A stretch of 64,000 nucleotides of DNA. Origin: Akkermansia muciniphila. Its GTDB lineage: Bacteria > Verrucomicrobiota > Verrucomicrobiia > Verrucomicrobiales > DEV007. Position 1 is the first letter of the stretch. Each line of letters opens with the position of its first letter. The stretch spans positions 1-64,000 of the forward strand of contig CAMCXS010000012.1 of the NCBI GenBank assembly GCA_945883495.1, read 5' to 3'. Made by a program: the position numbers and the translations under genes. Below, piece by piece: positions 402 to 55,376 of the stretch. The notes beneath the pieces were generated by a model. It had not been told where the DNA came from. It made no database searches and worked only from the letters and a program-made list of their open reading frames with translations.

Positions 402-430
402 AATACCCTGCGCGATCAGCGCACTCCGCC

Positions 431-458
431 CATCAACCATCAACAATCAACAATCAAC
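431..458 (+). repeat. Heptamer array A: four 7-bp units, consensus MATCAAC
   Basis: Exactly four 7-bp units (two CATCAAC, two AATCAAC) lie here. The block is bracketed by a 13-bp direct repeat, GCGCGATCAGCGC, at 410-422 and 461-473. It sits about 95 bp upstream of the CNNM gene and points towards it. Related blocks occur at 41792-41819 and 41850-41877. The rest of 402-552 shows no gene and no clear promoter. Confidence 0.85.
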
Positions 459-552
459 CCGCGCGATCAGCGCGAACGCCCAGCGTGTGACGCATGTTTT
501 TCCAGCGTGCGATTGATTTCCTGGCAAAGTTCGGAGAAGTCTCCTTGAAACC

Positions 553-1772: not shown

Positions 1773-4700
1773 ATGATTCGGCGTCGCCGTCAACGCCGCG
1801 TGCAGTGGAGACGATTGTGGCCTCGACGACGCAGCGGATTGACGCGGCACGGGATGTTGCCGTTGCTGATCAAGGTCTTCGCCGGCTTCTCCCAGGTGGA
1901 CGGCCAAATCGAGGAACGCGAAATCGACGTCGCGCTCGGCTCCCTGCGTCACGATTTCCCAGAGACGGTCTACTCGGAACTGCGGGAACTCTACCGGCAA
2001 GCCTTGCGGCAAGCGCAGGATCTCAACGGCATTGCGCGATCCTTGGAAGGCCGGTTGGCCATTGAGGACAAGATCCTCCTCGGCGTGCAACTCTACGCAA
2101 TGGTTTCCCGGTCCGAGCTGGATCGCAAGAATCTCACCGCGTTTTATCAATTCATGTCCAACCTCGGGGTGGCCGACGAGGCGATGGACATCGTCTACCA
2201 GCTCAACGCCAACGAGCCAAGCGCCATCGCGGGCCCCTCCGTCCCGGGGCATCACCTGGAAACGCTCGTCATCAGCCGGGGACCGCAGGGGGACGTGGTC
2301 CTTCCGGGCTTGGAAGCCGGGCACGCGATCGTCGGATTTCGACTTGGCGATCTCATTCTGCTCAAGAACATCGGCACGCTCCAAGTCATCACCCGGGGCC
2401 GGACCATTCAGCCGAATGGCTTTATCCGCCTCTTCGACGGCCAGCAAGTGGTCCTCGGGGAAATGGTGCTCGATTACCGGGATCTCTCCTTTTACTTCAA
2501 CGCGAAGAAGCAAGTCGCCTCGGTCCGTTTGTATCTTTCCTTCGATGGCGAGGGCGCCGCCTACGTGGAAAAGGAGCAGAGCCGCCAGACGTATCTCGAA
2601 GTATGGTTCGGCCTGGCGGTGAGCATCACGGCCTTCCGGGACACGCCCGCGACGATCAATGGCTTGCGCCTCAAGGAAGGCGTCACCGTCGAAGCCTCCT
2701 TGCGCGACCGGATCGAATTCGACGACCGCACGGAGATCGCCCTTCTCGATCTGTGGCGCCGCGCCAAGGTCTTGGGCGGACGTTTCGACCTCAACCCGGC
2801 CCGCTCCGAATACCTCGTCTCCAACAATCCCTCCGACCTCCAGGAAGGCGATATCCTCGTGTCCGGCAGCGAAGGCGGCCAACTGCTGCTCCGCATCCGG
2901 TGTGATCACGACAACCGCACCGGCCAGCTCGAAGTCATCCGCTCCGACCGCCCCGTGCTCATCGGCGACGTGCCGGTGCGCGGCGGCCGCATCATGTTGC
3001 GGGACGGCGATGCCATCACCATTGGCGATGGCCAGTTCCTTCGGTGCCACTTCACGGAAGGGATCATCGAGGAAGAGCGGAACTTGGTCAGCCGGCTTCA
3101 GGTGCGGGAAGTCTCGCATCGGTACGGCAACGATTCCGCGCTGGACGCAGTGAGCTTCACGGTGGAACGGGGCGAGATGGTCTGCATCATGGGACCGAGC
3201 GGCAGCGGCAAGAGCACGCTGTTGCGAGCGTTGGCGGGTCATTTGAAACCGTCCCGGGGACAAATTCTCCTCAACGGCGTGAGCCTCTACGGATCCGTGT
3301 GGAACCGGCAACGCCTCATGCCGTATGTCTCCTTCATCCCGCACGAGGAAGCCATCGAACCGCTCCTCACGGTCGAGGAAAACCTGCATCTCGCCGCCAC
3401 GATCCGCGCCCCGTATCTCCGCGAAGCGGACCGGAACCGGCGCGTCGATGCCAAGCTCACCGAACTCGGATTAAGCGAAGTCCGTCACCAACGGGCGGGC
3501 GACAACGAAATCCGCGTCCTTTCCAGCGGCCAACGCAAGCGGCTCAACGCCGGTTTGGACATGATCGGAATATCGGATGTCTACCTTTTCGATGAGCCGA
3601 CTTCGGGTCTCTCGTCCAAGGATTCCGAGCACGTCCTCGAGCTGATCCGCGGCTTGGCGCACAATAAAATCGTCATCGTCAGCATCCATCAACCGAGCGC
3701 CCGGCTCTTCCACCTCTTCCAGAAAGCGCTCCTGCTCGATCACGGAGGCAAGGTGGCCTTCTTCGGCACGCCGGGGCAGATGCTCGACTATTTCCGCAAG
3801 GTCCAACGCGAAGAGCAGATGACCGATGCACCGCTCCCTCGGGGAGAGGACACGGGCTGGGGCCAACCGGAACTGATCTTCGACATCCTGGAAACGCCGC
3901 TGCGCGACCTCAACGGGGAAGTGATCTACGAGGAGGACAAACGCGGCCAACTCTCCCCGTCCCGGCGTTTCAGTCCGGCCTTTTGGCAAGATCGCTTCCA
4001 AACGCATCGCCTCATGGAAGAGGTGCATCGGGAAGAGCCGGAGACCGATCCCCAACCCGTCAAACCGCCCCCCTCCCCGGCCCGCACCTGGCGGGATGAA
4101 TGGGTCCAATTTGGCGCGCTCTTGCGGCGGTCATTCCTAGGGAGGCTGCGCAACCGGGCGAATCTCACCACGACCCTCCTGGAAGCGCCGGCTTTGGCGT
4201 TGCTCGTTTCCTTCGTGCTCCGCTACGCCGAGGACTCGACCTACCGGTTCCATTCGGCGTTCCACCTTCCCACCTACTTTTTCCTGACGCTGGTCATCGG
4301 GATGTTCCTCGGCCTCACCAACAGCGTGGATGAGGTGCTCCGGGATCGCACCATTCTGCAGCGGGAACGCAATCACCGCGTCCGCGTGGGGCATTACGTG
4401 ATCGCGAAAATCATCACCTTGGCGCTCTTCGCGCTGCTCCAGTGCGTCATCCACACCCTGGTCGGCTCCTGGGTGCTCGGCATCCGCGGGATGTTTCTCT
4501 TCAATCTGTTTTGGATGTACGCCACCACCGTTCAGGGCGTGATCACCGGCCTGCTCATCTCCAGCGTGGTCCCCAATCCGAAAACCGCGCTGAACTGCAT
4601 CCCGCTCATCCTTATCCCCCAAATCATCCTCGGCGGCGCCTTGATCAAATACGAGGAGATGAACCGCGACGTGAAGGTCGAAGAAGCCTTCCGCCGCATT

Positions 4701-5339
4701 GTCGATCGCGACGACAAAGACGACGTACCAAACAGTCGGCTTTCCGTACCCGCAATCTGCGCCCTCATGCCGTTGCGCTGGTCCTACGAAGGAATGATTC
4801 TCTGCGCGGCGCGTCACAATCCCGTGAGCCGGCTGCAGGCTGATTTTGACTACAGCGCCCGGGTGTTGGCCTCGCGCCGCGATCTTGATGCCGAGGGCGA
4901 ACGCCGGCTGCGCGCCATCAAGGACGCTCGTCCCTATTTGCAAGGGTTGGAAGCCCGGACGCCCAAGGCGGTCGAACTAGGCTTGAAACATCTTCAAGGC
5001 ACGCTGGAGACTGGAACGTTGGATCGCGAGTTCCTCAAATCGCTTGCTCCACTGCAGGGCTGCGAGGTCTTCCGGCCGCAGGACCTTTATGTGAATCAGA
5101 AGATCCAGGATCTCTACACTCGCGCCGAAATGGAGCGCCTCGATTATCGTTCGGGTACCGCCCCAAACGTCTTCTTCGGAGCTCGCCGGACTTATCGGTT
5201 CACCTGGCCGCCGGGCGCACCACCCCGTGAAATTGTGGTCTCCACCTTGATGATGGACTTGGCAATGCTTGGTTTTTTCGCGGTGACGGGCACGGTTTTG
5301 GTTTACCTCGGAGTCAGTGCCATGCTGCGGAGGGTGTGA
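1773..5339 (+). CDS. TerB-FHA-like ABC transporter, ABCG-type single polypeptide
   Basis: The 1188-residue protein joins several modules. A very basic N-terminus is followed by a TerB-like helical region (about 30-140), then a region with FHA-like features (about 160-440, including RDGDAITIGDGQF). Next comes an ABC ATPase with Walker A GPSGSGKST, signature LSSGQRKR, Walker B VYLFDEPTSGL and switch His in SIHQPS, then an ABC2-type membrane domain of about six helices with a long insertion between the last two. The ATPase-then-membrane order and the signature resemble ABCG/White half-transporters. FHA domains bind phosphothreonine, so phosphorylation control is plausible but inferred. The substrate is unknown. 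The start at 1773 is chosen for its Shine-Dalgarno site; an in-frame ATG at 1713 would add 20 residues. Confidence 0.85.
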   Translation: MIRRRRQRRVQWRRLWPRRRSGLTRHGMLPLLIKVFAGFSQVDGQIEEREIDVALGSLRHDFPETVYSELRELYRQALRQAQDLNGIARSLEGRLAIEDKILLGVQLYAMVSRSELDRKNLTAFYQFMSNLGVADEAMDIVYQLNANEPSAIAGPSVPGHHLETLVISRGPQGDVVLPGLEAGHAIVGFRLGDLILLKNIGTLQVITRGRTIQPNGFIRLFDGQQVVLGEMVLDYRDLSFYFNAKKQVASVRLYLSFDGEGAAYVEKEQSRQTYLEVWFGLAVSITAFRDTPATINGLRLKEGVTVEASLRDRIEFDDRTEIALLDLWRRAKVLGGRFDLNPARSEYLVSNNPSDLQEGDILVSGSEGGQLLLRIRCDHDNRTGQLEVIRSDRPVLIGDVPVRGGRIMLRDGDAITIGDGQFLRCHFTEGIIEEERNLVSRLQVREVSHRYGNDSALDAVSFTVERGEMVCIMGPSGSGKSTLLRALAGHLKPSRGQILLNGVSLYGSVWNRQRLMPYVSFIPHEEAIEPLLTVEENLHLAATIRAPYLREADRNRRVDAKLTELGLSEVRHQRAGDNEIRVLSSGQRKRLNAGLDMIGISDVYLFDEPTSGLSSKDSEHVLELIRGLAHNKIVIVSIHQPSARLFHLFQKALLLDHGGKVAFFGTPGQMLDYFRKVQREEQMTDAPLPRGEDTGWGQPELIFDILETPLRDLNGEVIYEEDKRGQLSPSRRFSPAFWQDRFQTHRLMEEVHREEPETDPQPVKPPPSPARTWRDEWVQFGALLRRSFLGRLRNRANLTTTLLEAPALALLVSFVLRYAEDSTYRFHSAFHLPTYFFLTLVIGMFLGLTNSVDEVLRDRTILQRERNHRVRVGHYVIAKIITLALFALLQCVIHTLVGSWVLGIRGMFLFNLFWMYATTVQGVITGLLISSVVPNPKTALNCIPLILIPQIILGGALIKYEEMNRDVKVEEAFRRIVDRDDKDDVPNSRLSVPAICALMPLRWSYEGMILCAARHNPVSRLQADFDYSARVLASRRDLDAEGERRLRAIKDARPYLQGLEARTPKAVELGLKHLQGTLETGTLDREFLKSLAPLQGCEVFRPQDLYVNQKIQDLYTRAEMERLDYRSGTAPNVFFGARRTYRFTWPPGAPPREIVVSTLMMDLAMLGFFAVTGTVLVYLGVSAMLRRV

Positions 5340-6909: not shown

Positions 6910-8802
6910 ATGGCCGTCACCTATACCGACGAAGACATCAAAACCCTTGACTGGCGGGAGCACATCCGGCTCCGCCCCGGGATGTACATCGGCAAACTTG
7001 GAGACGGCAGTTCTCCAGACGATGGGATTTACGTCCTGCTCAAGGAAGTGATCGACAACTCGATCGACGAGTTCGTCATGGGTCACGGCAAAGTGATCGA
7101 AATCCAGTTGGACGGCCGCCGCCTCCGCGTCCGCGACTACGGCCGGGGGATTCCGCTGGGCAAGGTCAAGGATTGCGCTGCCAAGATCAACACCGGTGCC
7201 AAGTACGACTCCCAGGCTTTCAAAAAGTCCGTGGGTCTTAACGGGGTCGGTATTAAGGCGGTCAATGCCCTCTCCAACTCGTTCCACATTCAATCCCACC
7301 GGGAAGGGAAGACGATGGCGATCGACTTCGTACGTGGCGAGGTCGCCAAGGAGCTGAAGGCGCCGCAATCTTCCAAGGAAGAACCCGGAACTGAATTGAT
7401 TTACGAGCCGGACGTAGATGTCTTCGGCGAATACAGTTATGATCCGGCCATCGTGGAGCAGATGCTCCGGAATTACTCCTACCTGAATCAGGGGCTCACC
7501 CTGTCGTTCAACGGCAAGAAATTCCGATCCAAGAACGGCCTTCTGGATCTCCTCAACGATTATCTGGGGAACGATGCGCCGCTCTATCCAGTGATCCACC
7601 TCACGGGTGAGGATATCGAAATCGCCCTGACCCACAACGATGCCAACGGCGAAGATTACTTCAGCTTCGTCAACGGCCAAAATACCACGCAAGGAGGCAC
7701 CCACCTCGCCGCCTTCCGGGAGTCTATCGTCAAAGTGGTGCGCGATTACTCCAAGAAGATGTTCGATGCCGCCGACGTCCGTCAAGGCATCGTCGCCGCC
7801 ATCAGCGTGCGCGTCGTGGAACCGGTCTTTGAATCCCAGACCAAAACGAAACTCGGTTCCGCCCTGATGGAACCAGGCGGCCAGTCGGTCCGGACCTATA
7901 TGGCGAACTTCCTGGGCTCCGCCTTGGATAATTATCTCCACCAACACCAGTCCGTAGCGGACGCAATGGTGGAGAAGATCGCCCAATCCGAGCGCGAGCG
8001 GAAGGAAATCAAAGGCATCCAAAAAGCCGCCCGGGAAGGTGCCCGGGCCGCGAAGGTCCACAACAAAAAGCTGCGCGACTGCAAGGTGCACTACAACACC
8101 AAGAATCCGCGCGGCGATGAATCCACGCTTTTCATTACCGAGGGTGACTCCGCGAGCGGTTCCATGACCACCGCGCGCAACCCGGAGTTCCAAGCCGTTT
8201 TCAGCCTCAAGGGAAAACCACTCAACACCTATGGGAAGACCCGCAAGGTGGTTTATGAGAACGAGGAGTTCAACCTCCTCCAGCACGCCCTGGATATCGA
8301 AAACGGGATTGAGAATCTCCGCTACAATCGCGTTGTCCTAGCGACCGATGCCGATGTCGACGGCATGCACATCCGGTTGCTCTTGATCACCTTCTTCGTG
8401 CAGTTCTTTCCCGACCTCATTCGGGACGGACACGTCTATATCTTGCAGACGCCTCTCTTCCGGGTGCGGAACAAGAAGGAGACCCGCTATTGCTATTCCG
8501 AAATGGAGAAGCAACAAGCCATCCACGAACTTCGGCCCAATCCCGACATTGTCCGATTCAAAGGTCTCGGTGAAATCTCGCCTCACGAGATGAAGGACTT
8601 CATCAACGAGAATATCCGCCTCGATCCCGTGGAGCTGCCGCCCCACACCAAGACGATCAGTGAACTCCTCGAATTCTACATGGGTAAGAATACGGAGGAC
8701 CGACAAAAGTTCATTATCCAGAATCTCCGCGTCGAAACTGATTTTGTCGCCCCAGAGGACGAAGAAGCCGCGCCCGAAGCGTTGGCCGCCGAGCTGGCCT
8801 GA
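6910..8802 (+). CDS. parE: Type IIA DNA topoisomerase subunit B (ParE-like)
   Basis: The 630-residue ATPase subunit of a type IIA topoisomerase (topoisomerase IV or gyrase) passes DNA strands using ATP. The GHKL ATPase domain holds [10 protein letters not shown] with catalytic Glu46 and Mg-binding Asn50, the GRGIPLG motif and the [17 protein letters not shown] lid. The transducer follows. The Toprim domain has [10 protein letters not shown] and [11 protein letters not shown], the acidic metal site. Length and lack of the gyrase-type insertion fit ParE more than GyrB, and the sequence resembles topo IV B subunits of Bacteroidetes and chlamydiae as known to me. No A subunit is in the window; rsmH follows 15 bp later. 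ParE versus GyrB should be settled by phylogeny. Confidence 0.85.
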
Positions 8803-40738: not shown

Positions 40739-41704
40739 TCACCGGTCCCGAGCACAGCGAAATCCGACGTCGTTCACCGCCGTGTCCGTAGCCGCTTCGT
40801 TGCGAGTGGAGACACGGAACTCCAGGATCGGCGGGGCGCCTGGTCGCGGGGAGGGACCATAACTGCGGTGAATACGCCAACTGGCGCCGCGCATGACGTG
40901 GACGTTGGGGCCGTTTTGAACCCCGCTGGGGCTGGAGGGACCTCGGGGATTGCGGCGATCGCTCTGAGCGTAGTACTCCGCGCCGAAGTAGTCTTGGCAG
41001 AGCTCCCAGACGTTCCCCGTCATGTCGAACAAGCCGTACCCATTGGGCCGGTAGCTTTTCACCGGAGCGGTGCCCGCATGCCCGTCCGTGGCGAAGTCCT
41101 TGTAAGGAAAATAGCCTTGCCAGAGGTTGCAGCGCCATTCAGACGGTTGACTCCCTTCCTCGGCAGGCAAGGGCTCGTTCCCCCACTCGTATTTGCACCC
41201 CTGGAGGCCGCCTCGGGCCGCAAACTCCCATTCCGCTTCCGTCGGCAAGCGCTTGCCCGCCCACTTCGCGTAGGCCACCGCGTCGTCCCAGGTCACGCAA
41301 ACGACGGGATGGTTCTCCTTGCCGTCCAGGTTCGTGCCCGCGCCCCCCGGCTGCCGCCAGTTCGCCTCGAAATCCATCCGCCACCACACTGGCTGATCGA
41401 GCGGCACCGCGCCCTCGGTCTTTTGGAACAGAATGCTCCCAAACTTGGCTCCGGCCGGCGGACGTTGCCCCTCGGGAATACTCGCCAAGTCCGTCTCGCT
41501 CAACGGCCGCTCCGCTACCGTCACGTAGCCCGTGGCCTCGACAAATTTCCGGAACTGAGCATTCGTCACCTCGGTTTCGTCGAGGTAAAACCCGTCCAAT
41601 TCCACCTCATGGGCCGGTTGCTCGTTCGGCATCCCGCTGTAGGAACCCATGAGAAACGTCCCGCCCGGAATCCAAACCATCCCCTCGATGACTGGTGGCG
41701 CCAA
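40739..41704 (-). CDS. FGE/SUMF1-domain lipoprotein lacking the redox cysteines
   Basis: The 321-residue reading has the formylglycine-generating-enzyme fold: GMVWIPGGTFLMGS, NAQFRKFVEATGYVTVAE, KRLPTEAEWEFAARGG, LFDMTGNVWELCQDYFGAEY and RGASWRIHRSYG. In true FGE the last segment carries two cysteines (MCHRSYC); here Ile and Gly replace them, and an insertion follows. Oxygen-dependent formylglycine formation is thus unlikely. The same frame runs upstream through a convincing lipoprotein signal (RVALTALALLLSGC, about 41745-41785) into heptamer array B, but has no ATG, GTG or TTG before the TTG at 41704. The real start is probably near 41790 and non-canonical, or was lost. No sulfatase gene is in the window. 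Confidence 0.8.
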   Translation of the reverse strand: MAPPVIEGMVWIPGGTFLMGSYSGMPNEQPAHEVELDGFYLDETEVTNAQFRKFVEATGYVTVAERPLSETDLASIPEGQRPPAGAKFGSILFQKTEGAVPLDQPVWWRMDFEANWRQPGGAGTNLDGKENHPVVCVTWDDAVAYAKWAGKRLPTEAEWEFAARGGLQGCKYEWGNEPLPAEEGSQPSEWRCNLWQGYFPYKDFATDGHAGTAPVKSYRPNGYGLFDMTGNVWELCQDYFGAEYYAQSDRRNPRGPSSPSGVQNGPNVHVMRGASWRIHRSYGPSPRPGAPPILEFRVSTRNEAATDTAVNDVGFRCARDR

Positions 41705-41791
41705 AACCGGCTCCGTCGCCGCCGCGGGGCCCGATTCGTGCTTGCCGCAACCGCTGAGGAGAAGCGCGAGGGCGGTGAGCGCTACGCGCCC

Positions 41792-41819
41792 GTTGAGAGT
41801 TGATGGTTGAGAGTTGATG
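41792..41819 (-). repeat. Heptamer array B: four 7-bp units, CATCAAC/TCTCAAC alternating
   Basis: On the minus strand two CATCAAC units alternate with two TCTCAAC units, exactly 28 bp. The block directly precedes the lipoprotein signal of the FGE-like gene and is in its open frame. With array C it forms an inverted pair around a 30-bp core. The sequence after it (GGGCGCGTAGCGC) resembles the 13-bp repeat flanking array A. Confidence 0.9.
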
Positions 41820-41826
41820 GGCCGGA

Positions 41827-42651
41827 ATGTTGCGTGATGTTGGCGGAACCATCAACTATCAACCATCAACCATCAACCGAGCCACGCTCTTTCGCCCCTG
41901 CATCGACCTTCACGAAGGCAAGGTGAAGCAGATCGTGGGCGGGAGCTTGCGGGACGATGGCGCGGGGCTGCGCACGAATTTTGAGTCGGATCGCTCCGCC
42001 GCCGAGTTCGCGGCGCTTTACCGGGCGGACGGATTGACCGGCGGGCATGTCATTCAGCTTGGGCCCGGGAACGAAGAAGCCGCGAGGGCAGCTTTGGCCG
42101 CCTATCCCGGAGGCTTGCAGATCGGCGGAGGAATTGGGCCGCACAATGCAGGGACTTGGCTGGCGGCGGGGGCCTCCCACGTAATCGTCACCAGTTATCT
42201 CTTTGAAGGCCCCGTGTTCCGGCTCGACCGATTGGAGGCGCTCGCGGACGAGATTGGGAAATCCCGCTTGGTCGTGGATTTGAGCTGCCGCCGCATCGCG
42301 GGAGCTGGATGGGCGGTGGCGACGAATCGCTGGCAAACCATTACGGATTACCTGCTCACCCCGGCCCATCTCGATGAGGTGGCCCAGCATTGCGAGGAAC
42401 TCCTGATTCACGCCGCGGATGTCGAGGGCCAGTGCCAAGGCATCGACGAAGAGCTCGTCCGCTTCCTGGGTGACTGGGGCGGATGCCCGATCACCTATGC
42501 CGGCGGCGCGCGCTGTCTGGAAGATTTGCGGCTGGTGGAAACCCTTAGCGGCGGCCGGGTGGATCTGACGATCGGCAGCGCCCTGGACTTGTTTGGAGGC
42601 AACGGCGTGACCTATGCGGATTGCGTGGCCTGGAACCGCGGCGCCCGTTGA
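41827..42651 (+). CDS. hisA: Eukaryote-type ProFAR isomerase HisA (HIS6-like)
   Basis: HisA isomerises ProFAR to PRFAR in histidine biosynthesis. The sequence follows the yeast HIS6 type, as I recall it, rather than the usual bacterial one: CIDLHEGKVKQIVGG, HVIQLGPGNEEAARAAL, QIGGGI, HVIVTSYLF, RLVVDLSCRR, NRWQTITDY, LLIHAADVEGQCQGIDE, ITYAGGA and DLTIGSALDLFGGN. Asp of CID and Asp of HAADVEG are the likely general acid/base pair. Family similarity begins about codon 20. The only ATG is at 41827, so the first residues translate heptamer array C (INYQPSTINR). Either the array is coding or initiation uses a non-canonical codon such as ACG at 41884. No other his gene is adjacent. Confidence 0.88.
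   Translation: MLRDVGGTINYQPSTINRATLFRPCIDLHEGKVKQIVGGSLRDDGAGLRTNFESDRSAAEFAALYRADGLTGGHVIQLGPGNEEAARAALAAYPGGLQIGGGIGPHNAGTWLAAGASHVIVTSYLFEGPVFRLDRLEALADEIGKSRLVVDLSCRRIAGAGWAVATNRWQTITDYLLTPAHLDEVAQHCEELLIHAADVEGQCQGIDEELVRFLGDWGGCPITYAGGARCLEDLRLVETLSGGRVDLTIGSALDLFGGNGVTYADCVAWNRGAR
41850..41877 (+). repeat. Heptamer array C: four 7-bp units, YATCAAC
   Basis: Three CATCAAC and one TATCAAC unit, exactly 28 bp, sit immediately before the conserved part of hisA and in its open frame. The block is the mirror partner of array B. Confidence 0.9.
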
Positions 42652-45700: not shown

Positions 45701-47314
45701 AGCACCCCAACCCTGATCATCCGCAATGGCGTGCTGGAGGACGCCGGGGTTTACTCGTGCCGCGTCATCGCGCCGGGAGGCACAGTCCATACTGGCCCGC
45801 AGCCTCTAGTCTTTGCCGGAGGCGCGCCGATCCTCCTGCCCCTCACGTTCACCGACCAGATGGCGGCTAGGCCGTTTTCCGCCGAAGTCGCGTTCGACCC
45901 AACTCCGTCGTTGCGTCCATCCCGCTTCCAAATCACTGGCCTGCCCCGTGGGGTGACCTTCGATCCAGCCACCGGCGTCATCTCAGGCACGCCCGCCACC
46001 GCAGGCGACTACAGGGTCACCGCCCGGGCGTCAAACCCAGCGGGCACCAGCGCCCCCGTGATCGCCACCTTGCGCGTCCGGCCGTTCGGGGAGAATCTCG
46101 TGGGCACCTGGGTCGCGATCATTGAACGTTCGGGCGAACTGGGCGGCTTCGATCTGGGCGGACGAGCCGATTTCACCATCGGCAACCGGGGGGCAGTCTC
46201 CGGCACGCTCCGGCTCGGGAGCGACTTGCACCGCTGGCGCGGAACGGTCAACCCGGAGCTGGATGACAAGCCAGTCCCTCTGTCCGTATCGATCCCACGT
46301 TCCGGGGGGACGCCGCTCATCATGGACCTGACGCTTGCTGGAAACAGCGCCGAAGGTCGACTCACCGTGCAAGGAAGCGACAACGCAGCGCCAAACGTCG
46401 CCGGTTGGCGCAAGGTCTGGTTGAGCCAGTGGGCCTCCAGGGGAGCTTCGCCTAGCCACCTCGCCACTGCTTTTTCAGGTTATCACACGTTTGTCTTGCC
46501 GGATGAAGGGAGAGTTGGAAGGCCCCAGGGGGAAGTCGGATCGCTCCGCACCACCCGATCAACGACCCGGATTTCGATCGGCGGTGGAAATGGCACTCCG
46601 GAAGTGGGCACCGGTTTTGGATCCCTCACCGTGAGCCTCCTTGGCGATGTCGCCTGCGTAGGGCGTACGGGAGACGGTCAGGCGTTCACGATCAGCTCTC
46701 CCCTGGGCCCCGATGGCGAGCTCGCCCTGTTCGCCTCCTTCTACAATGGTTTGGGCTCACTGTCTGGCATCGCGAAGATCAGAGCGGACGCCAATCACAC
46801 CATCGCCTGTCCCGCTTGGGGACGGATTTACTGGCAAAAGCGGGGACAGACTGCCCTCACTCCACTCTATCAAGGAGGCTTCAGCGCCTACGTGCAAATT
46901 CAGGGCGCCAGGTACACGCCTCCCGCCAAATTGCCAGCTCTTTTGCCAGAGTCAGCCAACGGACAGGCACGACTCCAACTTCATGGATACGACTTCGGTA
47001 CCTGGGATGAGCCCACGTCGCTGCCCTTCACCCTGAAGGCAAACGCCCCTAGACTGCCCACGCCCGGCATTCCGGGAATCCGCGAGCTCAGGATCGACCG
47101 GGCCACTGGATTCTTCAACGGCACCGTCCGCCACGTGGCGCCCACGCCGGATGGGCAAAGCGTGCGTCGGGATCTCCCCTTCTCCGGCGTCTTCACGAGT
47201 GGTCGAGGAGAGGGCTTCCTGCGCATTCCCGGTTTCCGTTGGCCGGACGCGCCGCCGCGCACTCCCCATCCGGTTTATCACGGACCGGTGGAGGTTACGG
47301 GAAGCGCAAACTGA
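42800..47314 (+). CDS. Large secreted delta-60 / Calx-beta / Ig-domain protein
   Basis: The 1504-residue exported protein starts with a signal peptide (MPSRAFLVLFCGLVVLHHSASA). Delta-60 repeats (about 20-400, such as GDLDPSFGNAGVALLDLS) suggest a beta-propeller. A choice-of-anchor/ASPM-HYDIN-like domain follows (about 515-600), then two Calx-beta modules (about 605-840) and two Ig-like domains (about 845-1020, YQWAKDGKPL and FAWLKDGQPV). Next is a putative He_PIG domain (ITGLPRGVTFDPATGVISGTP) and a C-terminal beta-rich region with repeated VGTWVAII-type elements. There is no PEP-CTERM or other sorting tail. It is probably an adhesin or extracellular matrix protein. The ATG at 42800 gives the signal peptide; a longer start would precede it by 21 codons. 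The stop lies five bases before a 21-bp array. Confidence 0.85.
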   Translation: MPSRAFLVLFCGLVVLHHSASAAPGDLDPSFGNAGVALLDLSAQQLDIVPGPSSLTADGAILVASQVKAASGISKPGDILVTRFLENGSLDASFGTDGLAWFDADGANLEEPVSILPAAEGKVFIGGRAAGKLIIVRLSENGSLDTSFSGDGILATALEATGGPQSLALQADGKLLAVGTTPTAQAVVARISDTGAADGEFGSNGQTVISWGSPSAWRGEAVVAMSDGRVVISGSTPSGQIVAARLSATGERDPAFGTSGLATHQTAEAALRIARTRVAEDGAVTIWSFHRQEQTNWPTLTSSPVFQTACTGAGAANPSGTKSVFLVDAVPSAMDVDASDRPLWCGRIVGLKWAGGLWPPMWPQTTFFDTMLHRLLPDFTHDASFGSFGRFRVPSSRPSVTASSVIAIPGKGSILIQHAQGESSPLGRLLVSRRVADEDKPFLIVRNGGRLSAEPGQIQPPSSSGLTSLQPISSNVVLLQTWPPESESGIRSGIPFELSEATPERPTVWRFTLRNGGTAALTNLHARISEGTGEYSISDPPSTLGSGAETSITVTFNPSQTGTRTGKIEFTGSGSTAPLFTLALTGTGKQATVTFVHPETLVKESDGRVRLPLRLGRALDREVRITATPLSTPENALSLIWYTANSQTDFSGPSLPAVFPPGVTEADLVLNLAMDGLPEGEEFNFISLSSLNDYSLAVGAHGYTKLRITDDSWSGFEFSTLQVPRNAGTVKIPVRLNRALDWDLLLPVQVTLSGQLGTDFEIPELVRSSDQNTVNVRIPRGALEGFVELRILAGNSTGGEKRISLRVGSGQAPAGSGFVASTAIQISNDGFSNGTPSFVIPVRNQIVAKGSRATLASLVASSTPVTYQWAKDGKPLRSQNGPAITLPAAALSDAGDYRVTASGANSLSATSAPAALAVVDTSPKPWQVLALGREARFVAEAAGRELTFAWLKDGQPVNPAEPRYQGASTPTLIIRNGVLEDAGVYSCRVIAPGGTVHTGPQPLVFAGGAPILLPLTFTDQMAARPFSAEVAFDPTPSLRPSRFQITGLPRGVTFDPATGVISGTPATAGDYRVTARASNPAGTSAPVIATLRVRPFGENLVGTWVAIIERSGELGGFDLGGRADFTIGNRGAVSGTLRLGSDLHRWRGTVNPELDDKPVPLSVSIPRSGGTPLIMDLTLAGNSAEGRLTVQGSDNAAPNVAGWRKVWLSQWASRGASPSHLATAFSGYHTFVLPDEGRVGRPQGEVGSLRTTRSTTRISIGGGNGTPEVGTGFGSLTVSLLGDVACVGRTGDGQAFTISSPLGPDGELALFASFYNGLGSLSGIAKIRADANHTIACPAWGRIYWQKRGQTALTPLYQGGFSAYVQIQGARYTPPAKLPALLPESANGQARLQLHGYDFGTWDEPTSLPFTLKANAPRLPTPGIPGIRELRIDRATGFFNGTVRHVAPTPDGQSVRRDLPFSGVFTSGRGEGFLRIPGFRWPDAPPRTPHPVYHGPVEVTGSAN

Positions 47315-47319
47315 TCCGG

Positions 47320-47655
47320 CGGGAGCTTCTCCCCGTCGAACCGGAGCTTCTCCCCGTCGAACCGGAGATTCTCCCCTTCGAACCGGAGATTTTCCCCTTC
47401 GAACCGGAGATTCTCCCCTTCGAACCGGAGATTCTCCCCTTCGAACCGGCGATCCTCCCCTTCGAACCGGCGATCCTCCCCTTCGAACCGGAAATTTTCC
47501 CCTTCGAACCGGAGATTCTCCCCTTCAGACCGGAGATTTTCCTCTTCGAACCGGAGATTTTCCTCTTCGAACCGGAGATTTTCCCCTTCGAACCGGCGAT
47601 CCTCCCCTCCGATCCGGAGATTTTCCTCTTCGAACCGGAGATTTTCCCCTTCGAA
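47320..47655. repeat. 21-bp tandem repeat array, 16 copies, between convergent genes
   Basis: Sixteen units of exactly 21 bp, of the form CCGGAGATTCTCCCCTTCGAA with substitutions, fill 336 of the 389 bp between the stop codons of two convergent genes (47314 and 47704). Several units hold an 11-bp palindrome GGAGANTCTCC and nearly all hold TTCGAA, also a palindrome. All units keep the length, so several frames are open, but substitutions do not favour synonymous sites in any frame; it is therefore not regarded as coding. Confidence 0.95.
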
Positions 47656-47703
47656 CCGGACCTTTCCGCAGCGCGACGGGCCCTGGATCCCAGAGACGAG
47701 CCG

Positions 47704-51131: not shown

Positions 51132-52523
51132 CTACGCGACGATCTCTTTCGCCACTACCCCGCTTACGTCCGTGAGCCGAAAATCCCGGCCAGCGTGACG
51201 GAAGGTCAGCTTCTCGTGGTCGAGGCCGAGGAGGTGGAGGATGGTGGCGTGCCAGTCGTGGGTGTGCATCTTGTTTTCCACCGCCTCGTAACCGTGATCG
51301 TCCGTGGCCCCATAGGAGAAGCCGCCTTTCACTCCACCGCCCGCCATCCAAGTGGTGTAGCCTTTGTTGTTGTGGTCCCGCCCACTGCTTTGGCTGTGTG
51401 GGGTGCGTCCGAATTCCCCCGCCCAGATGACGAGGGTATCTTTCAGCAATCCGCGTTGCTTCAAGTCCGTGAGCAGGCCAGCGATCGGCTGATCGATCTC
51501 TTGGCAGCGCGCGGGCAAGTCCTCATCGATGTTCCGATGGTGATCCCAATTCCCGTGCGTCAACTCGACAAAACGGACGCCGGATTCAATGAGGCGCCGC
51601 GCCACCAGACATTGGCGGCCAAAGTTCCCGGTTTCGGTGCCGTTCACGCCGTAGAGATCCAGTGTTTGCGCGGATTCGGCGGAGATGTCCATGACTTGCG
51701 GCAGCTTGTCCTGCATCCGGAACGCCAGCTCGAAGGATTCGATGACACCTTCCACTTCCGGCTGATGGACGTCCCGTTGCAGCTTGTCCCGGTTGAGCGA
51801 TTGCACCAAATCGAGCTGGATCCGCTGCAGGTCGCGATCGAGCCGGGGGTTGTCGATGTTCGGGATTTTCGGCGTCGCGTCGCCCCGCCCCGGACGGCGG
51901 AACCGGTTGTCGCCGCCGATGCGGGTTGCTTGATAAATGGCGGGCAAAAACGCGCTGCCGAAATTCTGGGCGGCCCCGGCCGGAGCGTTGAGCGCCACGA
52001 AACCGGGGAGATCGGCGTTCTCGGTGCCCAACCCGTAAAGCGTCCAAGCGCCCAGCGAGGGACGGACGAACTGAGAGTTCCCCGTGTGCATCGCGACCTG
52101 GGCCTGCGGATGATTCGGAAAGTCCGTGTGCATGCCGCGCAAGAGACAGAGGTCGTCGGCATGTTTGGCGACGCTCGGGAAGAGCTCCGAAATCTGCAAA
52201 CCGCTCTGGCCATGAGCGGAGAACTTCCAGGGAGACCCCATCAGCTTCCCTCCCCCATACTTTCCGGCCTTGCCGTCGTCCGCGGAGAGCTTCGGCTTGA
52301 AGTCGAAGGTATCCACGTGAGACGGCGCGCCCTGCATCGACAGAAAGATCACGCGCTTCGCCCGAGCCGGTAGCGGGGGGACTTTTGGGGCAAGCGGATT
52401 GGCTTCCGCTAAAGCTCTCTCGTGTGCCATGGCCAGAAAAGCCAGATAGCCGAATCCACTCCGTAGAAATGCGGAACGCGGAATGCGGAGTGCGGAGTGC
52501 TCGGAATGAAGCGGATGGTTCAT
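51132..52523 (-). CDS. DUF1501-family exported protein with altered Tat signal
   Basis: The 463-residue protein belongs to DUF1501, a family related in fold to alkaline phosphatases/sulfatases and abundant in Planctomycetes and Verrucomicrobia. It shows KRVIFLSMQGAPSHVDTFD, GKLMGSPWKFSAHGQSGLQ, FPSVAKHADDLCLLRGMHTD, TLVIWAGEFGRTPHSQ and GRDHNNKGYTTWMAGGGVKGG. Family members normally begin with a twin-arginine (Tat) signal. Here the start (NHPLHSEHSALRIPRSAFLR) is read through heptamer array D and no RR pair remains. Its partner, a DUF1549/DUF1553 protein, lies upstream, separated by a four-helix-bundle gene. The reaction is unknown. Confidence 0.9.
   Translation of the reverse strand: MNHPLHSEHSALRIPRSAFLRSGFGYLAFLAMAHERALAEANPLAPKVPPLPARAKRVIFLSMQGAPSHVDTFDFKPKLSADDGKAGKYGGGKLMGSPWKFSAHGQSGLQISELFPSVAKHADDLCLLRGMHTDFPNHPQAQVAMHTGNSQFVRPSLGAWTLYGLGTENADLPGFVALNAPAGAAQNFGSAFLPAIYQATRIGGDNRFRRPGRGDATPKIPNIDNPRLDRDLQRIQLDLVQSLNRDKLQRDVHQPEVEGVIESFELAFRMQDKLPQVMDISAESAQTLDLYGVNGTETGNFGRQCLVARRLIESGVRFVELTHGNWDHHRNIDEDLPARCQEIDQPIAGLLTDLKQRGLLKDTLVIWAGEFGRTPHSQSSGRDHNNKGYTTWMAGGGVKGGFSYGATDDHGYEAVENKMHTHDWHATILHLLGLDHEKLTFRHAGRDFRLTDVSGVVAKEIVA
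52470..52497 (+). repeat. Heptamer array D: four 7-bp units, consensus YGCGGAR, inside the DUF1501 start
   Basis: Four units (one TGCGGAA, one CGCGGAA, two TGCGGAG) are followed by a diverged fifth, TGCTCGG, at 52498-52504. The block lies within the first codons of the DUF1501 gene (minus strand) and in the opposite orientation to array E. Confidence 0.9.
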
Positions 52524-52525
52524 TT

Positions 52526-52873
52526 CTATTGATTCTTTCTGGATGTTCGGATCGACGATACGGCGATGGCGGTTAACTCGTTGGCTTCTTGCAGAAGAGG
52601 TTGTATGCGTTCTAGAGGCACATGTCCGGCGCTAGCCAGCATCTCGAGCCACAGAGCAGACTCATCCGCCTCCTCTTCGACGATTCCCATCTTGGCTTGA
52701 AACTCAGCCGGGCTTCGGCCTCGACAAGCCGCCCGATAGTTTGCTGCCACGGACGTGCCGCTGCGAAGCAACTGCCGCCCCAGAACGTCCGTTGAACGGT
52801 TTGTGGGCAGCGATTCGGTGAGATGGATGACCTTCAAGGCGAACTCCTTCGTGCGTTGCTTCAATTGCTCCAT
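52526..52873 (-). CDS. Four-helix-bundle protein (23S rRNA intervening-sequence protein family)
   Basis: The 115-residue protein matches the TIGR02436/S23 family of four-helix bundles: LKQRTKEFALKVIHLTESLP, the segment DVLGRQLLRSGTSVAANYRAA, then RSPAEFQAKMGIVEEEADESALWLEML. Relatives occur in 23S rRNA intervening sequences, and as accessory Avd proteins of diversity-generating retroelements. No reverse transcriptase or rRNA gene is here. It sits between two genes that are normally neighbours and is flanked by inverted heptamer arrays D and E. The ATG at 52873 is chosen because codons upstream come from array E. The stop lies two bases before the DUF1501 ATG. Confidence 0.82.
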   Translation of the reverse strand: MEQLKQRTKEFALKVIHLTESLPTNRSTDVLGRQLLRSGTSVAANYRAACRGRSPAEFQAKMGIVEEEADESALWLEMLASAGHVPLERIQPLLQEANELTAIAVSSIRTSRKNQ

Positions 52874-52885
52874 TCCCAACCTTTC

Positions 52886-52913
52886 TTCCGCATTCCGCAT
52901 TCCGCATTCCGCA
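52886..52913 (-). repeat. Heptamer array E: four perfect TGCGGAA units abutting a stop codon
   Basis: Four identical 7-bp units (TTCCGCA on the plus strand) begin directly after the TAA of the DUF1549 gene and end shortly before the four-helix-bundle start. Array E is inverted relative to array D. Confidence 0.95.
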
Positions 52914-55376
52914 TTAGTTCAGAAAGCGGAATTCAGCAGAGGCGAACAAGCCTTGGCAGAAGGTCGTGAAAGCGAGGGTGCGGGCTTTTTCGAGGTCCAT
53001 GGTCTTCTGTGCTTCGGCGACGAAGCGTTGGAAGAAGGCTTGGCAACTGGCGATCTCTTGCTCCGTGGGCGGACGGCCGTAGCAAATCAGGAACGAGCGG
53101 TAAAACCGTTCCCGCACCGACTGCGCTTCAGTCCCAAGCCGCTGGGCCATGGCTTCGGCTTGTTGCACCACGAACGGATTGTTCATGAGATACAACGACT
53201 GCCCCGGCACGTTCGTGGACTCGCGCACGCCAGTCACCATGTTGGGATCCGCCCCATCGAAGAGAGCGAGTGACTCTGGCAATAGATCCCGGATCGCAGG
53301 CAAATAGACGGAACGGTAACGCTCGGGGCGATTGACGACGTCTGGATTCAACCGCAGTTGCAGCGCCGCATCGCCCATTTCGGCAACCAGGGAGCCGCGA
53401 GGACGCTGGCGAGCTAACTGGCCACTGGCGACAAGCATGGAATCACGCACGGCTTCAGCATCGAGCCGCCGCGGAGTGGCGCGCCAGAGATACACGTTAT
53501 CGGGATCCGCGGCATAATTCGCGGAATCAAACGTGGACGCGAGGCGATACGTGCGGCTCAGGACCATTTCGCGAATCAAGGTCTTGGCCGACCAGCCGCT
53601 GGCCACGAAACGAAGCGCGAGGTGATCGAGGAGTTCCGGGTGCGAAGGGCGTTGGCCGGTGGTCCCAAAGTTGTCCGGAGACGTGACGATTCCCTGCCCG
53701 AAGAGCCCCTGCCAGATGCGGTTGACCATGACCCGGGCGGTCAACGGATTCTCAGCGGAAGCCATCCAACGGGCCAGTTGCAAACGGCCACTGGCATCGC
53801 TCGGGATCGTGGGAGCGGAGGGTTGGATCACCTGAAGCACGCCACGCGGAACTTTTTGCGCCGGTTTGCTCAACTCCCCACGGACGAGCACCGGAACATC
53901 CGCCGGGACGTCTTTGTCTTGCACCCCCATGGCGAACGTCTTGGTCCGGCCATTGGCATCGAGGCCGTTGAGCAAGGACTGCAAGGTGCCGATCTGGGAA
54001 CGCAACCGGATGAGATTGAACAGATTGTTGTTTCCTTTCGCCCCGGTCATCTGCTCGCGGAACTCAGCGGTGCGCGCCGCGGTGAGCTCTTCCTCCGCCT
54101 TAGCGAGCCGTTCCTTGATCCCTGCAATCTCCTGTGGGGAGTAGGTCTTGATTGGGACTTGGTCTTCGACGGGCAGCAAAAGCAGCTCCGTGGTCCGCCG
54201 GTTAATGCCCGTCGCCACGGTTCCATAGAGTGTCTCCGTGCTCAGAAAGATCCCGGCCAGGGAATAGTAATCCGCCGTGGGGATCGGATCCGTCTTGTGA
54301 TCGTGACACCGCGCACAAGCCACGGTCAGCCCTTGAAAGGCTTGAAACGCGGTGTCGATCTGCTCATCCGCGACATCCAGGAGAAACTGACGGGAGTCTT
54401 GTTCGTTCAAGCCCTTGGTCCCGATTGCGAGAAATCCAGTCGCGATGAGGTTCTCCTGGAAGTCCGCGTCGTTGCGGATGGGCAAGAGATCTCCGGCGAT
54501 TTGCTCCAACAAAAAACGGTCATAGGGCTTGTCCTCGTTGAACGAGTCGATCACGTAGTCACGATATCGCCAAGCGTGCGGATACGGGAGATTGAGCTCT
54601 TTGCCGGTCGATTCCCCGTAGCGGGCAACGTCAAGCCAACGGCGCCCCCAACGCTCGCCGAAGTGCGGGCTGGCCAGGAGCGCATCCGCTTTGGCGGCCA
54701 ACGCCCGTTCGGGATCCACCTTCCAAGCGCGGACAAAAGCTTGCACCTCCTCGGGACTTGGCGGCAGCCCAGTGAGATCAAAATGCAAACGGCGAACCAA
54801 CGACTCCGCCCCTGCGTCGCCCACGGGGTGGAGCCCCTTGGATTCGAGCGCCTCAAGCACGAACCGATCGATCTCCCCACGGGCCCAATCCGCCTGCTTC
54901 GGCTCGGGCACGGGCACACTGCGCGGCGGCTGGAACGCCCAAAAACGGCGCCCCGCCTCGATATCGATGCCGCTCTTTACGGAAGCCACCTCCTGAACAC
55001 GCGGGTCCGGCACCCCCATGGAGATCCATGACTTGAAATCCGCGATGGCGGACTCCGGCATCTTGTTTTTCGGCGGCATCTGCGTGTCCCGATCCGCCCA
55101 GGTGATGGCCTCGTAGAGGAGACTCTCCTCAGGATTCCCGGGAACGATGGCTGGACCAGAATCGCCGCCCGCGAGAAGCCCGTCCCGGGTATCGAGCGCC
55201 AAGCCCCCGCGGATTTTCTCCTCGGATGAGTGGCATTCGTAACAATATTGGCTCAGGGCGGGCCGGATCTTGGACTCGAAAAAGGCGGTCTGCTCGGGTG
55301 TGAGCGCTCCGGACACAAACGATGGCGCCAGCAAGATGGCAACGGCAGTGGCGGCGACAACGGGCAACGATTTCAT
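52914..55376 (-). CDS. Cytochrome-like PSCyt1-DUF1549-DUF1553 protein
   Basis: The 820-residue exported protein has a signal peptide (VVAATAVAILLAPSFVSG) and a planctomycete-type cytochrome c domain with heme motif CYECH (about residue 45). DUF1549 follows (about 165-375, with RRLHFDLTGLPPSP, ERWGRRWLDVARYGES and a second CxxCH in ACARCHDHK), and then DUF1553 (about 520-780). These proteins are paired with DUF1501 proteins throughout Planctomycetes and Verrucomicrobia; a redox role in polymer breakdown has been suggested but not proved. It is the first gene of the minus-strand set; the stop codon touches array E. Confidence 0.92.
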   Translation of the reverse strand: MKSLPVVAATAVAILLAPSFVSGALTPEQTAFFESKIRPALSQYCYECHSSEEKIRGGLALDTRDGLLAGGDSGPAIVPGNPEESLLYEAITWADRDTQMPPKNKMPESAIADFKSWISMGVPDPRVQEVASVKSGIDIEAGRRFWAFQPPRSVPVPEPKQADWARGEIDRFVLEALESKGLHPVGDAGAESLVRRLHFDLTGLPPSPEEVQAFVRAWKVDPERALAAKADALLASPHFGERWGRRWLDVARYGESTGKELNLPYPHAWRYRDYVIDSFNEDKPYDRFLLEQIAGDLLPIRNDADFQENLIATGFLAIGTKGLNEQDSRQFLLDVADEQIDTAFQAFQGLTVACARCHDHKTDPIPTADYYSLAGIFLSTETLYGTVATGINRRTTELLLLPVEDQVPIKTYSPQEIAGIKERLAKAEEELTAARTAEFREQMTGAKGNNNLFNLIRLRSQIGTLQSLLNGLDANGRTKTFAMGVQDKDVPADVPVLVRGELSKPAQKVPRGVLQVIQPSAPTIPSDASGRLQLARWMASAENPLTARVMVNRIWQGLFGQGIVTSPDNFGTTGQRPSHPELLDHLALRFVASGWSAKTLIREMVLSRTYRLASTFDSANYAADPDNVYLWRATPRRLDAEAVRDSMLVASGQLARQRPRGSLVAEMGDAALQLRLNPDVVNRPERYRSVYLPAIRDLLPESLALFDGADPNMVTGVRESTNVPGQSLYLMNNPFVVQQAEAMAQRLGTEAQSVRERFYRSFLICYGRPPTEQEIASCQAFFQRFVAEAQKTMDLEKARTLAFTTFCQGLFASAEFRFLN

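Follow-up and report, generated by a model that had tools for sequence, protein, structure and literature searches.

Two divergent genes of an uncultured Verrucomicrobiota bacterium, one encoding an FGE-like lipoprotein (PF03781) and the other hisA, have their 5' ends covered by a short unit of two outward-facing heptamer arrays (B and C). With somewhat better than even confidence we regard this B/C unit as an IVP-less copy of a heptamer-bounded type of element that elsewhere carries an IVP (S23, PF05635) gene, old in the genus, and as the place from which hisA is now started, at position 41827. The unit lies in a 64,000-nucleotide stretch of DNA, here called the window, from a 6.46-Mb assembly of 206 contigs (the host genome). 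The nearest named relatives by hisA identity are the MAGs V1-115 (L039, 87%) and REEB427 (L040, 84%), which correspond to G001 and G002, the other two genomes assigned to this genus; the genus is taken here as these three known species, the host and two sisters.

Array B (41792-41820, minus strand) consists of four heptamer units, CAACTCT/CAACCAT on the minus strand (alternatively GTTGAGA/GTTGATG; TRF score 58), and reads outward into the FGE-like gene. Array C (about 41848-41878, plus strand) is made of CATCAAC heptamers (AACCATC x4.6; TRF score 57) and reads outward into hisA. Between them is a core (41821-41847) with a GGCCGGA box and the ATG at 41827. The array coordinates agree with the earlier note, which had described two arrays diverging from a core of about 30 bp between these genes; the core measures about 26-30 bp. 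The sequence AACCATCAACCATC, allowing at most two mismatches, has 8 matches in the window versus 0.41 expected from shuffles, and none of 100 shuffles reaches 8. An outer GC hairpin, GCGC-TAC-GCGC, borders array B (41779-41789), as is the case for many solo arrays of the host genome, and another, GAGC-CAC-GCTC, borders array C (41879-41889) and overlaps hisA codons 2-3. The hisA-read strand of array C, CATCAAC repeated, is stop-free in all three frames and encodes HQPSTIN in each, so ribosomes can cross the array in any phase, while the opposite strand has one TGA per unit.

As RNA, the unit is predicted to form a long hairpin whichever strand is transcribed (-55.9 and -57.2 kcal/mol, z about -6.3); the hisA AUG lies near its apex. 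By analogy with the intervening sequences (IVS) of rRNA (PMC4990558), RNase III may cleave this stem. A cut inside array C would part the AUG from hisA, which would mean that the stem stays uncut, is melted by ribosomes, or that transcription proceeds from the core. An Rfam scan of the locus gave nothing above chance, and a known RNA family was rejected on this ground. A scan for sigma-70-type promoters and intrinsic terminators, which may not suit this phylum, found none within the unit.

The hisA frame (41827-42651, plus strand) contains a single ATG, that of the core at 41827, with TTG as the second codon and no Shine-Dalgarno sequence upstream. Nineteen residues encoded by the core and array C (MLRDVGGTINYQPSTINRA) precede the sequence TLFRPCIDL, and the TIGR02129 (hisA) profile match (E 2.8e-111) begins at residue 20 of this frame, just where the earlier note had placed the onset of family similarity. 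The note's further point, that the sole ATG forces translation of array C, is in keeping with this open frame. At the canonical start (41881-41883) the codon is GCC. Among 30 relatives inspected, the codon directly before T-x-FRPCIDL is ATG in most, with one GTG and a few other codons. The hisA gene of the sisters has GTT (L039) and TTG (L040) at this place. Judged from the reading frame, hisA is most likely initiated at ATG 41827 and would probably carry a 19-residue, repeat- and core-encoded N-terminal extension, with MLRDVGGTINYQPSTINR as the predicted N-terminal peptide. The suggestion that the arrays themselves support initiation is not supported, given that the coding strand CATCAAC is free of ATG, GTG and TTG and that the ATG serving hisA is in the core.

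Elsewhere in the host genome, units of similar build contain an IVP gene. Between livJ and livH, an outward GTTGATG/CATCAAC pair encloses an intact IVP gene (C82:9325-9753; PF05635, E 2.3e-34), whose ATG is directly preceded by the box GTTGATGGCCGGT; the box and ATG following the 5' array match between the two units (GTTGATGGGCCGGAATG in B/C, GTTGATGGCCGGTATG in C82). This is the only one of the host IVP genes to be flanked by the GTTGATG heptamer. Another IVP gene, encoding an S23 four-helix-bundle protein, is located in the window (52526-52873, minus strand; PF05635, E 2.9e-16) between inverted AATGCGG/TTCCGCA arrays. Its 5' array (52886-52915, minus strand) reads TGCGGAA in the IVP sense, with the TAA stop of the upstream host gene overlapping the first heptamer, and its 3' array (52468-52500, plus strand) reads AATGCGG on the plus strand and is read in frame into a DUF1501 gene. 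The two sisters allow the sites of these units to be compared. The window IVP unit is 457 bp long in the host, versus 67-69 bp at the same site in both sisters, and where the host has the liv unit of 445 bp, G002 has only some 20-odd bp. No clean target-site duplication is seen at livJ-livH, livG-livF and DUF1501, where the units replace sequence; at a gene junction, a unit of this type takes the place of anything from a few bases to a few tens.

Replacement extends to the start codons of neighbouring genes. At the junction with the liv unit, livH begins with ATG GAATTC in G002 and TTG GAATTC in the host. Uninserted starts of livF and DUF1501 were taken from the sister orthologues. At livG-livF, a Shine-Dalgarno sequence and an ATG are present in the sister (MNVSQPLLSLRDL), and the host has an IVP-less array pair, the core ATG of which reads in frame through the array into livF (MTASHQPSTINHHPLLTVREL); the peptide predicted from this in-unit start is MTASHQPSTINHHPLLTVR. 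One branched-chain amino-acid transport operon (L208, G000:C82:5000-17000) holds two heptamer units, the first with an IVP gene (4326-4754) and the second without (7430-7509). The DUF1501 gene (51132-52523, minus strand) has its ATG inside the IVP unit, 2 nt past the IVP stop (TAGAAATG), and its frame continues across the array. The gene thus begins MNHPLHSEHSALRIPRSAFLRSGFGYL in the host versus MNDSHFSSRRMALKGLSSGFGYL in the sister, and the twin-arginine-like N-terminus (SRRMALKG) of the sisters is replaced; MNHPLHSEHSALR is the peptide predicted from the in-unit start. The ATGAAC of this gene may alternatively be an original start that was kept, the array having entered the N-terminal codons behind it. 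For hisA, livF and DUF1501 alike, these observations place the only plausible start inside the unit, in frame through the unit end.

Measured against S23/IVP units, the B/C unit is bounded on either side by inverted heptamer arrays that face outward, and its core, shorter than 30 bp, has no IVP open reading frame. IVP remnants were sought in and near B/C and at every other GTTGATG array, and none was found; hence we term B/C an IVP-less relative, rather than a member, of these units. Its descent from an IVP unit is inferred from the identical heptamers, the box, the orientation and the placement at a gene junction. Arrays B and C with their core would then represent one short inverted-repeat insertion, by which hisA would have lost its own ATG, with initiation now occurring where the IVP start would be. 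The insertion appears to be old. Decayed arrays are found at the orthologous FGE-hisA site in both sister species, and a decayed 7-base rhythm is discernible at the array-C region of both, which indicates that the unit probably predates the species split and that the three species solved the start differently. Thus the unit was probably already between the two genes in the ancestor of the genus's three known species. Vacant counterparts were seen only for the window IVP unit, the liv unit and the array pair at livF. Presence of the unit is not in itself enough to cause the takeover, as L040 has retained starts beyond the arrays.

The FGE-like open frame (40739-41851, minus strand) opens after a TGA (41854-41852) within array C on the minus strand and continues with WFRQHHATFRPINSQPSTLNGRVALTALALLLSGC through array B into an intact lipobox (Cys codon 41749-41747). 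No ATG, GTG or TTG precedes the cysteine, which upholds the earlier description of a lipoprotein signal running into array B without a start; the first in-frame TTG, at 41704, is past the signal, and array C has a minus-strand ATG (about 41853) that misses the FGE frame by one base. The note's central observation, that both genes have lost their normal starts and have arrays there instead, is corroborated by GCC at the hisA start, the startless FGE-like frame and the parallels at livF and DUF1501. The sisters have a clean ATG (L040, MPSPALRALVVLTLCSAGCGK) and an in-frame GTG beyond the array (L039). In L039 the array-encoded stretch is in the same frame and similar (FQPINSHPSAL versus FRPINSQPSTL), and array B has the same frame and the same number of heptads, four, as in the window. 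The configuration is therefore partly ancestral: the case that the note named as refuting its reading, orthologues conserving the array-encoded N-termini as protein, is in part borne out by L039, and only the absent FGE start is peculiar to the host genome. Compared with the sisters, the FGE-like gene has a dN/dS of 0.037-0.038, no higher than that of hisA, indicating purifying selection and a gene that is not drifting; under such strong constraint, a genuine start loss would be very recent. The FGE start would have been lost as well, with no in-frame replacement in this assembly; the gene may have lost it very recently, may initiate in an unusual way, or may only look startless through a sequence error.

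Of these, an assembly or consensus error in the MAG that destroyed an otherwise ordinary FGE start is unlikely, yet it is the rival reading to be taken most seriously. The low dN/dS, which demands a very recent loss, the GTG and ATG starts of L039 and L040 and the difficulty of assembling arrays all favour it. However, such an error accounts neither for GCC at the hisA start nor for the arrays themselves, livF or DUF1501, and L039 independently has a similar arrangement.

Pattern searches and the sequenced regions inspected gave about 45 GTTGATG/CATCAAC array loci in the host genome, versus one exact array match in G001 and none in G002. Most host arrays are single, many with a GC-rich hairpin on one side and GGGCGGGAA on the other; one example is a CATCAAC array in the window (430-459, plus strand) with the outer hairpin CGCGCGATCAGCGCG. 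Opposed pairs within 450 bp comprise 7 outward and 0 inward. According to a crude codon-usage gene caller, 43 arrays lie close to an end of a gene, and 20 of these are at the 3' end in the GTTGATG sense. Six same-orientation CATCAAC arrays occur inside a larger intergenic repeat of composite build that also contains GAGCAC hexamers (L182, G000:C5:97500-109500), and at L160 (G056:C1, about 1490-1560) CATCAAC arrays are apparently translated in frame within a protein (PTINHQPSTINPSEAAPSLNSQPSTLN). The window also contains two long 21-bp tandem repeats, CGCCCTCGCCCATTGAGGTGA x19 (1-401) and GGAGATTCTCCCCTTCGAACC x16 (47322-47660).

The number of IVP genes, 8 in the host versus 0 and 1 in the sisters, parallels that of the arrays. 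In other Verrucomicrobiota, 14 of 29 IVP loci had period-7 arrays on both sides, versus 0 of 23 hisA controls, and the two flanks matched in inverted orientation over 10 nt or more at 15 of 29 versus 2 of 23; about a third of the loci had no clear array. Periods 5, 6, 9 and 10 were almost nil at these loci, and period 8 was present on at least one side in 9 of 29. For nine plasmid IVP genes, mostly of Cyanobacteria with Gemmatirosa and Azospirillum in addition, period-7 arrays were found on both sides in six and on at least one side in seven, and inverted flank matches in six; their settings include the intervals between nrdB and nrdA and between cas6 and cas4. In the latter case (L306, Pseudanabaena galeata plasmid, 46268-46627) the long AAAAGCT arrays are direct, not inverted. 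The flanking heptamer sequence varies from locus to locus. Two broken IVP copies were observed beside AGGCTGT/AGGCTGG and CACTCTT heptamer arrays (G000:C146; L252, L253). In 12 related genomes searched for both features, an IVP gene was present in 7/7 with the array and 1/5 without (Fisher p 0.01), which is suggestive, these genomes being kin.

The same survey bears on the view that the heptamers are an independent dispersed repeat, comparable to those of Xanthomonas, Nostoc and Beggiatoaceae and spread by slippage or recombination, with IVP genes landing nearby and B/C arising as a chance inverted pair. That single arrays greatly outnumber pairs in the host genome counts against an IVP-derived B/C unit; together with the missing IVP remnants, it means that the arrays could be an independent repeat shared by IVP units, and the location of many just 3' of genes is like that of the GGGAATC repeats (PMC4692102). 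This view nevertheless seems rather unlikely, as it leaves unexplained the matching inverted arrays, of a different heptamer each, around IVP genes of many genomes, the exclusively outward pairing and the empty sites edged by arrays.

Re-initiation, or use of a rare start such as the ATC that array B offers in frame, would for the FGE-like gene suit the purifying selection and the intact signal peptide, but such starts are very rare and we have no positive support for one; we consider this improbable. Least probable is a frame-based phase switch, now OFF for FGE and ON for hisA, in which gain or loss of one heptamer shifts the frame of an upstream ATG: seven is not a multiple of three, a unit change could align the array-C ATG with the FGE frame and heptamer copy number differs between strains in the Coxiella IVS (PMC4990558), yet neither array is long or perfect, the upstream GTG of L039 shares the FGE frame at unchanged array length, and phase switching was rejected as the main reading because array B has the same number of heptads in L039 and the housekeeping gene hisA is a poor candidate.

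An IVP-less copy of a heptamer-bounded IVP element, the reading we prefer for B/C, has partial counterparts among known systems. In the 23S rRNA IVS of Coxiella burnetii, two to three tandem heptamers (GACAGAT) lie directly before the S23p start, with a copy number that varies by strain (PMC4990558). Similar to the host units, this IVS has terminal inverted repeats in a long stem and an S23p open reading frame inside; unlike them, known IVS are inside 23S rRNA genes, whereas the host units are at protein-gene junctions, with heptamer arrays at both ends that overlap host stops and starts, and B/C, lying between protein genes and lacking the reading frame, is not a classical IVS. The GGGAATC/GGGGATT repeats of Xanthomonas and Nostoc, linked to G-quadruplexes (PMC4692102), are likewise short heptamer arrays, mostly intergenic, near the 3' end of open reading frames and in part inverted pairs. 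IVP genes at L286 and L305 are flanked by near-identical heptamers (GGGAATC/GGGAGTC and GGGGAGT), although GTTGATG is without the G-runs needed for G-quadruplexes. The TAACTGA direct repeats of marine Beggiatoaceae, Cyanobacteria and Bacteroidetes (PMC4679880) comprise two to six heptamers at gene starts, mostly without a Shine-Dalgarno sequence, but have a different heptamer, a start codon after the repeats, inverted pairs in only 1 of 170 cases and stops on the forward strand. MITE and REP-type elements are also short non-coding inverted repeats in many copies; the ends of B/C-type units are tandem heptamers, however, target bases are replaced rather than duplicated and no partner transposase was seen. 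To our knowledge, neither a transposase nor a mobility mechanism is known for such units.

In the papers found on heptamer repeats, S23/IVP genes are unmentioned, and the only literature found to join the two, in a search that left most subscription journals outside, is the Coxiella case. That paper reports heptamers before S23p without generalising (PMC4990558). Earlier observations of heptamer arrays, and likewise of S23/IVP proteins, were left without explanation, and the association of the two, with the empty sites of the sisters, provides a single testable account. Tentatively, and with more doubt than for the B/C unit itself, we propose that S23/IVP genes in many bacteria may be the cargo of widespread, unrecognised small elements ended by inverted heptanucleotide arrays, which would settle at gene junctions, overwrite host stops and starts and supply replacements from within; the heptamer repeats of Xanthomonas, Nostoc and Verrucomicrobiota would then be largely their footprints. 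The B/C unit illustrates how inserted DNA can take control of where a housekeeping gene starts, the stop-free repeat strand and the core ATG together giving an in-frame N-terminal extension, and start annotations near such arrays are for this reason suspect.
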